Of a DNA stretch of 64,000 nucleotides, positions 4,437 to 60,728 are shown piece by piece. This DNA comes from Gemmatirosa kalamazoonensis. GTDB lineage: Bacteria; Gemmatimonadota; Gemmatimonadetes; Gemmatimonadales; Gemmatimonadaceae. The position numbers and the translations under genes are program-made. Within the stretch, counting starts at the first letter, position 1. Every line of letters begins with the position of its first letter. The notes under the pieces were generated by a model that saw only the letters and a program-made list of their open reading frames with translations, had not been told where the DNA came from and searched no databases. Where the stretch lies: positions 744,001-808,000 of the forward strand of contig NZ_CP007128.1 in NCBI RefSeq assembly GCF_000522985.1, written 5' to 3'.

Positions 4437-4445
4437 CGCGAATCA

Positions 4446-4532
4446 TTGAACCGCAGAGGACGCAGAGGGCCGCAGAGGAAACCAACAACGAATGGTTTTC
4501 CTCTGCGGCCCTCTGCGTCCTCTGCGGTTCAA
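4446..4532. repeat. Intergenic palindrome, CCGCAGAGG family (single stem)
   Basis: Two 39-40 base arms are almost perfectly complementary, differing by one A in a run, around an 8-base loop. Each arm holds three tandem units ending in GCAGAGG. The element fills the gap between convergent genes, starting 10 bases after one stop codon and ending 2 bases before the other. It could act as a bidirectional terminator, although no T-run follows. Confidence 0.9.
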
Positions 4533-4533
4533 T

Positions 4534-5137: not shown

Positions 5138-5320
5138 TCGAACCGCAGAGGGCCGCAGAGGCCGCAGAGAACGACAACGGCTCTTTTACCACAGAGGACG
5201 CAGAGGACACGGAGGAAACCAACGAGAAGTGGTTCTCCTCCGTGTCCTCCGTGTCCTCTGTGGTTCAACAAAAAGCGGCACCTCTGCGGCCCTCTGCGGC
5301 CCTCTGCGGTTCAAATTCGA
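5138..5320. repeat. Nested intergenic palindrome, CCGCAGAGG outer and CCACAGAGG inner
   Basis: The outer arms (about 5138-5170 and 5280-5320) are tandem GCAGAGG units, the same family as 4446-4532. Inside lies a complete second palindrome (5188-5266) whose arms are tandem 9-base units of the type ACACGGAGG. The element separates two leftward genes, downstream of the permease and upstream of the cupin. Confidence 0.9.
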
Positions 5321-9699: not shown

Positions 9700-9843
9700 G
9701 GCTCCACGTACGAGTTCGTGTAGGACTGAAGAAGGACTGAAAGGAGGACTGAAGAAGGACCAACAACGAAGACGTTGTGTTTGGTCCTTCTTCAGTCGCT
9801 CTTCAGTCCTTCTTCAGTCCTGGTCAAACACGTACGTGGAGTC
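9700..9843. repeat. Intergenic palindrome, ACTGAAGAAGG family with CTCCACGTACG ends
   Basis: Terminal inverted repeats GGCTCCACGTACG and CGTACGTGGAGTC bound arms made of three tandem 11-base units of the ACTGAAGAAGG type; the tip is ACGAAGACG-like. It lies between two rightward genes. Sister copies are at 15359-15457 and 30244-30388. Confidence 0.9.
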
Positions 9844-12580: not shown

Positions 12581-12680
12581 GGACAGGATGACAGGACGGA
12601 CAGGATGACAGTCACCAAGACGGCTGTCGCAGTTGCACTCTTTGGGAGGTTCTCATCCTGTCCGTCCTGTCATCCTGTCG
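12581..12680. repeat. Intergenic palindrome, GACAGGATGACAGG family
   Basis: Arms at 12581-12607 and 12654-12680 are reverse complements built from the tandem words GGACAGGATGACA and GGACGGACAGGATGA, around a unique centre of about 46 bases. The element may overlap the 5-prime end of the next gene. It is the only copy of this family that I saw in the window. Confidence 0.85.
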
Positions 12681-19247: not shown

Positions 19248-19324
19248 TCACGCGGAGCCGCGGAGCGCGCGGAGAACGCCACTCGTGTCGTCGGCGTTCC
19301 CCGCGTGCTCCGCGGCTCCGCGTG
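19248..19324. repeat. Intergenic palindrome, TCACGCGGAGCCGCGGAG family
   Basis: Arms TCACGCGGAGCCGCGGAG and its exact complement, extended by GCGCGGAGAACGCC against GGCGTTCCCCGCGTG, surround a short centre. It lies upstream of the MaoC gene; a TTATCTT word just before it (19239-19245) could be a -10 element. Copies: 26150-26225 and 39585-39665; left halves only at 20427, 45825 and 60491. Confidence 0.9.
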
Positions 19325-19352
19325 ACATGAACGGCACGGCCCGAGACCACCC

Positions 19353-20474: not shown

Positions 20475-20658
20475 AACGAACCGCAGAGGACGCAGAGGGT
20501 CGCAGAGGACTGCCCTCTTCGATTGGACCACGGAGGACACGGAGGACACAGAGGAAACCCACTCTCTTGAAAGGGTTCTCCTCCGTGTCCTCTGTGTCCT
20601 CTGTGGTTGAAGAAGCAGTTGACGTTCTCTGCGGCCCTCTGCGTCCTCTGCGGTTCAA
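20475..20658. repeat. Nested intergenic palindrome, CCGCAGAGG outer and CCACGGAGG inner
   Basis: Outer arms are three tandem GCAGAGG-type units (about 20477-20505 and 20628-20656). A complete inner palindrome of ACACGGAGG/ACACAGAGG units spans about 20525-20610. It sits between convergent genes (ACT protein and moeB). Confidence 0.92.
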
Positions 20659-26149: not shown

Positions 26150-26225
26150 TCACGCGGAGCCGCGGAGGACGCGGAGACCACCCAAAGCCGTTGGTGTTCT
26201 CCGCGTGCTCCGCGGCTCCGCGTGA
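26150..26225. repeat. Intergenic palindrome, TCACGCGGAGCCGCGGAG family
   Basis: Its arms are the same words as the copy at 19248 (TCACGCGGAGCCGCGGAG and complement) extended by GACGCGGAGA-type units. It begins 3 bases after the LVIVD stop codon and ends 16 bases before the SGNH hydrolase start. Confidence 0.92.
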
Positions 26226-27881: not shown

Positions 27882-27951
27882 GTGCTGCGTGGCTGCGTGG
27901 CTGCGTGACGACCGAACGCAGCCACGCAGCCACGCAGCCACGCAGCTACGC
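27882..27951. repeat. Intergenic palindrome, GCTGCGTG family
   Basis: Three GCTGCGTG units are mirrored by four complementary units, ending beside the citrate-synthase stop at 27946. It lies between convergent genes. Confidence 0.9.
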
Positions 27952-42220: not shown

Positions 42221-42405
42221 ATCGAACCGCAGAGGACGCAGAGGGCCGCAGAGGACTGCCTCTTCTTGGTTTGAACCACAGAGGGCGCAGAGGACACAGA
42301 GGACCCCAACTGAAGGGATCTCCTCCGTGTCCTCCGTGTCCGCTGTGGTTAAAAAGAAGAGAGAATGGTGTTCTCTGCGGCCCTCTGCGTCCTCTGCGGT
42401 CGATT
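42221..42405. repeat. Nested intergenic palindrome, CCGCAGAGG outer and CCACAGAGG inner
   Basis: Outer GCAGAGG-unit arms (about 42224-42252 and 42374-42403) enclose an inner palindrome (about 42274-42352) of ACACAGAGG units with one substitution (GTCCGCTGTGG). It separates two leftward genes and touches the stop codon of the monooxygenase. Confidence 0.92.
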
Positions 42406-45824: not shown

Positions 45825-45955
45825 TCTCACGCGGAGGCGCGGAGGGCGCGGAGGATTCCCTTCTTTGCAGCGACCACTGGGGATCCAGCGGCGATGGAAC
45901 GGATCTCGAGATCGCTTCCATCGCCGCTGGATCCCCAGTGGTCCTTGCAAAGAAA
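45825..45955. repeat. Half TCACGCGGAGG element followed by GGGGATCCA palindrome
   Basis: 45825-45860 is a solitary left arm of the CGCGGAG family. 45861-45955 is a 95-base palindrome: CTTCTTTGCA, CCACTGGGGATCCAGCGGCG and GATGGAACGGATC are mirrored about CTCGAG. It lies between two leftward genes. Confidence 0.88.
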
Positions 45956-54772: not shown

Positions 54773-54928
54773 ATCGAACCGCAGAGGGTCGCAGAGGACC
54801 GCCCCTTTCTTGTATGAACCACAGAGGACACAGAGGACACGGAGGAAACCCAACAAGAGAGGTTTCTCCTCTGTGTCCTCTGTGTCCTCTGTGGTCAAAA
54901 GCCGTTTGATGTCCTCTGCGGTTCGATT
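54773..54928. repeat. Nested intergenic palindrome, CCGCAGAGG outer and CCACAGAGG inner
   Basis: The outer arms carry ATCGAACCGCAGAGG and its complement, with a shortened right arm of one unit; the inner palindrome (54817-54896) has three ACACAGAGG units per arm. It lies between two rightward genes, and its right end is 12 bases before a promoter-like TATCTT. Confidence 0.92.
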
Positions 54929-56071: not shown

Positions 56072-56327
56072 CGTCTCACGCGGAGCGCGGCGCCTTTCGT
56101 GGGGCACGGCTCCTCGCATGGAGACGCGGATGGCGCGGATGACGCGGATTCGCGCGGAGAACACCGACACATTCTTGGTAGCTCTCCGCGTGATCCGCGT
56201 CATCCGCGAGATCCGCGTCTCCCCTTCGACGAGCCGTGCCCGGCGCACTCGACGTGCCCGGTGCGACGAAGCCGGACCCCAGGTCCGTGCCGTTCGCCGA
56301 GCCCTCGGCGTCTCCGTGTGAGAGACG
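56072..56327. repeat. Triple-nested intergenic palindrome, GCGGATGACGCGGAT inner
   Basis: Three levels are visible: GTCTCACGCGGAG against CTCCGTGTGAGAGAC (outermost), GGGCACGGCTC against GAGCCGTGCCC (perfect, 56102 and 56231), and inner arms of ACGCGGATGGCGCGGATG units against CATCCGCGAGATCCGCGTC (56121-56221). It fills most of the gap before the permease; 56328-56511 shows no further feature apart from the gene leader. Confidence 0.85.
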
Positions 56328-60490: not shown

Positions 60491-60728
60491 GTCTCACGCG
60501 GAGGCGCGGAGACCGTGGAGAGCCGCAGGGGGCTGCGCCTTTGAATTGAACCGCACAGGGCCGCAGAGGGCCGCAGAGGACTGCCTCTTTGTATCGAACC
60601 ACAGAGGACACGGAGGACACAGAGGGAACCCGTTCTCTTGAAGGGTTCTCCTCCGTGTCCTCTGTGTCCTCTGTGGTAAGAAAGCAGTTGCCGTTCTCTG
60701 CGGCCCTCTGCGGCCCTCGGCGGTTCAT
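60491..60728. repeat. Half CGCGGAG element followed by nested CCGCAGAGG palindrome
   Basis: 60491-60520 is a solitary left arm (TCTCACGCGGAGGCGCGGAG). 60546-60728 has outer GCAGAGG-unit arms with a few substitutions (CACAGGG, CTCGGCGG), and an inner palindrome of ACACGGAGG/ACACAGAGG units (60597-60677). It lies between convergent genes; nothing else is seen in this 300-base gap. Confidence 0.9.

Follow-up and report, generated by a model that had tools for sequence, protein, structure and literature searches.

The palindromes scattered through the window, i.e. the 64,000-nt stretch of Gemmatirosa kalamazoonensis DNA analysed here, probably belong, as gene-less and non-autonomous copies, to a family of palindromic mobile elements that also comprises copies with a GxxExxY or IVP gene, new members landing in the tips of hairpins already in place. 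The evidence comes from the anatomy and nesting of the palindromes, from the match between arm motifs and particular genes in the home genome and across phyla, and from empty and differently filled sites in Thioalkalivibrio.

Palindromes of the window and of the home genome

The window is part of a 7.48-Mb genome of four contigs and 73% GC. It contains 20 matches to CCGCAGAGG against 1.39 expected, a number that none of 100 shuffles reaches, and 19 matches to ACACRGAGG against 0.66 expected; genome-wide, AACCGCAGAGG has 131+131 copies and its backward control 1+1. The DNA of 5138-5320 folds at -80.9 kcal/mol, shuffles of it at -29.3 +/- 3.3 (z -15.9). According to the initial annotation, five of the six CCGCAGAGG elements (5138, 20475, 42221, 54773, 60546) hold a complete inner CCACAGAGG palindrome and only that at 4446 lacks one; both statements are borne out, the nesting being far above chance and the loop at 4446 measuring 21 nt. 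The likeness that it saw among linkers is real but was understated, as each linker is a short inverted repeat and the same few types recur; likewise, its picture of two families is right about the nesting and too simple as to families and levels, which include A, B, C and D and reach A>B>C (outer>inner). Those window palindromes that were compared with ORFs are intergenic (Table 1).

Table 1. Palindromes located in the window (positions are those of the window)
Feature	Position	Strand	Remark
B-type (CCGCAGAGG) palindrome, short loop, without inner element	4445..4533	.	
Outer B arm, left	5141..5170	.	
Inner C (CCACAGAGG) palindrome in loop	5189..5263	.	
Outer B arm, right	5281..5311	.	
GGACTGAAG (E) palindrome	9722..9821	.	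arms identical in type to those around GxxExxY gene L012
GACAGGATGA (K) palindrome	12582..12679	.	arms as around GxxExxY gene L010
A-type palindrome	19248..19325	.	
B>C composite	20479..20656	.	inner C 20528-20606
A-type palindrome	26150..26225	.	
GGCTGCGT (W) palindrome	27884..27946	.	arms as around IVP gene L009
A-type (ACGCGGAG) palindrome, short loop	39585..39665	.	
B>C composite	42225..42401	.	inner C 42276-42348
GGGGATCC (D') palindrome	45861..45954	.	arms related to those around GxxExxY gene L013
B>C composite	54777..54923	.	inner C 54819-54894
CGCGGAT (H) palindrome	56120..56222	.	arms as beside GxxExxY gene L011
B>C composite	60547..60727	.	inner C 60599-60676

A survey of 1.65 Mb (C2:1-1,648,000) yielded 233 clusters of palindromes, whose arms are nearly always built of tandem 7-14-nt units and which fall into more than 12 families, among them, by arm unit, A (CGCGGAG), B (CGCAGAG), C (CACRGAG) and D (GGGGAT...). 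Nesting takes the forms A>B, A>C, A>D, B>C, B>D and A>B>C, the last being the deepest stack (C2:1510070), and once B>(D'+C); within the same 1.65 Mb, no nesting with other families was seen for T (TCGGGAC), S, G, W and J. The loops of A and B form a short class of 13-37 nt, followed by a gap up to 66 nt, and nearly all loops of 66 nt or more have another palindrome inside.

Genes within the palindromes

The home genome has nine IVP genes (PF05635) and about seven GxxExxY genes (PF13366), some of them in pieces. Most lie inside or between palindromes of the surveyed families, nearly every gene with a different family, and 197 of the 233 palindromes have a 13-mer in common with the flanks of one of these 16 genes, against a mean of 49 and a maximum of 127 in 100 draws of 16 random loci. 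When 250-bp flanks were searched, with shifted windows as controls, inverted arms were found to enclose 28 of 33 IVP genes (controls, 1/66) and 15 of 30 GxxExxY genes (controls, 1/60) in the home genome and its relatives among the Gemmatimonadota, half of the GxxExxY loci in relatives being without an arm pair at the threshold used. The GxxExxY gene flanked by A arms (C2:1535069-1535301) is missing the middle of its domain, where the active site should lie, and the one flanked by B arms (C3:993804-994150) is split between frames; C-type palindromes have no gene partner in the home genome. Tandem CRCRGAG units are enriched in only five of 40 relatives, and GxxExxY is present in all five.

The association extends across phyla. 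A scan of 84,980 species genomes returned 80 GxxExxY loci, 78 of them testable for arms, from Proteobacteria, Bacteroidota, Chloroflexota, Acidobacteria, Planctomycetes, Verrucomicrobia, Cyanobacteria, Methanothrix and others. The gene sits inside inverted arms, mostly of CRCRRAG units, at 52 of the 78 loci, against 0 of 140 control windows; roughly one locus in three has no arm pair at the threshold used. Moreover, the arm motif follows the subgroup of the GxxExxY protein (48/59 vs 0/7, p 4e-5, the sequences being related and one locus, L118, being wrongly placed in the second group). The gene-bearing and gene-less copies inspected are intergenic, beside protein genes, and not in the tip of a 23S rRNA helix. 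Read by eye, one such element (L156) stands between an apparent trpE and an apparent trpG. At another locus (L109, 1900-2470), two long near-identical palindromes with AAGGATAACGAAAAGGATGC arms and stems of more than 100 bp adjoin the GxxExxY gene.

The protein scores 138 bits against the TIGR04256 profile (cut-off 35; family TIGR04256/PF13366). Its AlphaFold2 model (pLDDT 92.9) has Cas4 SSO0001 as closest fold (Z 10.4), and next, at Z of 7.5 or less and partly tied with common folds, come Hjc, other Cas4 proteins, lambda exonuclease and AddAB. Residues D59, E69 and K71 are fully conserved, and Q83 and Y87 almost so (D, ExK, QxxxY). By its model and conserved residues, GxxExxY has the PD-(D/E)XK fold of Cas4- and RecB-like nucleases, and nuclease activity is to be expected of it. 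PADLOC gave no match for GxxExxY or IVP proteins; searched by sequence against the PDB, GxxExxY found no match and IVP found 2gsc.

Presence, empty sites and inner families in Thioalkalivibrio

Fifteen Thioalkalivibrio genomes served for the study of empty sites. Seven of them carry GxxExxY, in single copy and at one constant locus, in three sequence types that go with three arm types (CACAGAG, CACGAAG, ACAGGAAG); scattered copies of the arms occur in all seven and in none of the eight genomes without the gene. The genes flanking the element adjoin directly in G061, which offers a clean empty site, G048 and G057, and the element is absent in five further congeners. Since Thioalkalivibrio species have a single GxxExxY gene and palindromes of three arm types, not every palindrome family requires a gene of its own in the genome.

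In the gene-less stacks of these genomes, X (CACGAAG) is outside, Y (CACAGAG) inside and Z (ACAGGAAG) innermost. At an orthologous site upstream of glnB, the palindrome is X>Y in G040 and G054, and the same X, with a matching linker, has Z inside in G056 and G062; it is absent in G048, G057, G055 and G060, and G061 keeps one arm. One outer palindrome thus holds Y or Z in different species, which suggests that an inner palindrome arrives in the tip of a hairpin already standing, and insertion of this kind is the simplest reading of this site; an ancestor that had both Y and Z, followed by loss, is a possible but less simple alternative. Some of the empty sites could be losses. A MITE of a DDE transposon would have terminal inverted repeats and a target duplication of fixed length; at the empty sites of the GxxExxY locus and of glnB, no clear duplication could be read. 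In species without the X palindrome, REP-like GTCATTGCGAGGAGGCGAAG repeats fill the site upstream of glnB (L279, L281, L287, L288).

Proposed insertion into hairpin tips and competing explanations

Two routes to the nesting had been envisaged from the outset, namely a composite spreading as a unit and inner elements inserting into the hairpin tip, to be told apart by the congruence of arm histories. Across 16 home-genome B>C composites, distances among the outer arms do not correlate with those among the inner palindromes (Mantel r -0.03, p 0.60, the sequences being short and the power small), linker and inner distances are weakly correlated (r 0.24, p 0.017), and two inner C copies that are near-identical (C2:786276 and C2:1618384) have linkers that differ. 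This mismatch favours repeated insertion, and together with the differing inner families of one orthologous outer palindrome in Thioalkalivibrio it supports insertion into the hairpin tip. Inner and outer arms do not occur mostly apart and at random offsets, a pattern that the initial annotation would have taken as counter-evidence: A/B arms are on both sides of 17 of the 21 C copies, on one side of three and on neither side of one. Because C lies inside A/B arms and outer and inner distances are uncorrelated, the inner element appears to target A/B loops.

That the composite of outer arms, linker and inner palindrome had one or a few origins and spreads as a whole, so that nesting is inherited, would agree with the near absence of C outside A/B arms and with linkers such as ACTGCCTCTTCGAA, which recur in B>C, B>D and A>D. 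It would agree also with CTCCACGTACG arms, which nearly always enclose GGACTGAAG palindromes (P>E, at least 18 copies); this composite, which surrounds the GxxExxY gene L012 and of which the window has a GGACTGAAG copy at 9722-9821, does look like a fixed unit. As a general account it is nonetheless unlikely, given the uncorrelated distances, the occurrence of inner C, D and D' in both A and B, or alone, and the Y or Z found by species within one outer X. A fixed composite is therefore not the main explanation of nesting; the recurrent linkers common to A>D and B>D do imply that some composites also multiply whole or exchange parts as units. Host replication offers another route, in which template switching or slippage at hairpins nests related palindromes and GxxExxY and IVP are passengers or site protectors. 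Tandem-repeat arms can slip, CRCRGAG units are common to the arms of A, B and C, and the linkers are themselves inverted repeats; this explanation, very unlikely in our estimate, accounts neither for the match of arm families to particular genes, nor for the joint absence of gene and copies, nor for inserted palindromes whose arms are unrelated to those outside (Z in X; D in B).

TnpA enzymes target hairpins, and the initial annotation had thought of transposases for single-stranded palindromes. A Y1/HUH transposase of the RAYT/TnpA-REP or IS200/IS605 type would move palindromes as in REPINs, with the same general logic, a gene in single copy having members of its own palindrome family on its flanks (PMC3116915). 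The landing in hairpin tips stands; the enzyme is scarcely probable, for a profile search of the 7.48-Mb home genome found no match to PF01797, 8 of 14 control profiles matching, by which Y1/RAYT is ruled out as the mover there. Further, Y1_Tnp does not track the palindromes in Thioalkalivibrio, being present in all 15 genomes with or without them, whereas GxxExxY occurs only in the seven that have them. Hardly credible is the view that selection keeps the palindromes as transcription terminators or regulatory hairpins, the gene link being incidental: it fits their intergenic position in the window, but terminators would not be expected to nest, to exist in 200+ copies, to be present or absent by species or to be linked to a gene, CRCRGAG units are enriched only in relatives that have GxxExxY, and no conserved T-run is apparent by eye.

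Proposed mechanism and significance

An element consists of a pair of inverted arms, each with some three tandem 7-11-nt units, around a loop of 13-37 nt, another palindrome, or a GxxExxY gene (in sister families, a four-helix-bundle IVP gene), each gene lineage being paired with its own arm motif. Under the preferred reading, new palindromes would insert into the tips of existing hairpins and build Russian-doll stacks with the older families outside. GxxExxY is likely the dissemination factor of the palindromes, as judged from association; it would bind the repeated arm units where a hairpin has been extruded, in single-stranded or cruciform DNA, and then, more tentatively, might cut the hairpin tip, whereupon the broken loop would capture a copy of another palindrome.

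The chances seem evenly poised that these are a separate class of mobile element, namely tandem-arm palindromes moved in trans by a stand-alone Cas4-like GxxExxY or a pentameric four-helix-bundle IVP and landing in hairpin tips, spread over many environmental phyla and explaining orphan repeats including cyanobacterial heptamers and rRNA intervening sequences. In the full-text literature (preprints and most subscription papers being outside its scope), neither a description of the arm sequences nor a link between GxxExxY or IVP and palindromes was found; the element is widespread in bacteria and apparently undescribed. If the proposal is true, two very common families of 'unknown' proteins, GxxExxY and the four-helix bundle/S23, would gain a function, orphan classes of short repeats in many genomes would be explained, the old idea of a mobility role for the ORF of rRNA intervening sequences would become testable, and the order of nesting would be a record of the order of invasion.

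Relation to known elements

The present element works like REPIN-RAYT systems and rRNA intervening sequences (IVS) but is neither. In the former, REP palindromes are associated with TnpA-REP, related to IS200/IS605 (PMC3116915, PMC2817692). Both systems have many gene-less intergenic palindromes and one or a few trans-acting genes, each flanked by its own palindrome family, GxxExxY or IVP here taking the place of RAYT; in contrast, the protein is a predicted Cas4-like nuclease or a four-helix bundle and not Y1/HUH, the arms are of tandem 7-11-nt units, the loop may hold a gene, and palindromes are nested. Intervening sequences of 23S rRNA with an S23p/IVP ORF are known, e.g., in Coxiella (PMC4990558), where Ralph and McClelland are cited as having proposed a mobility role for that ORF. 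There too, an inverted repeat that has entered at a hairpin carries in its loop a gene for an IVP-family protein, an arrangement found here in the sister IVP families (28/33 in Gemmatimonadota) and not in the nested families, which use GxxExxY. Unlike IVS, the present elements are outside rRNA, have tandem-unit arms and comprise hundreds of gene-less copies.

For the hairpin elements of mitochondria, we know of no linked gene. The double-hairpin and repetitive hairpin elements described there (PMC2800124) are scattered between genes and in this resemble the present ones, although they belong to eukaryotic organelles.

The heptamer repeats of cyanobacteria (STRR) and the GGGAATC inverted repeats of Xanthomonas, of unexplained origin (PMC4692102), likewise consist of 7-nt units in tandem, often as inverted pairs, lie between genes and are of high copy. 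One Xanthomonas species has about 70 inverted pairs of GGGAATC heptamers (PMC4692102), and its S23 protein Xcc0516 has been crystallised (2gsc); the pairs may be arms of the same IVP element. Differently from those accounts, such arms here enclose IVP genes, namely on ten cyanobacterial plasmids (L296-L305), where the inverted heptamer arms, which look like STRR heptamers, score 13-31, the weakest four or five (13-16) being short and one, L301, being a long repeat with high controls. On these plasmids, the S23 four-helix-bundle genes stand between operon partners, i.e. cas6/cas4, RNR subunits and cmr2/cmr3.
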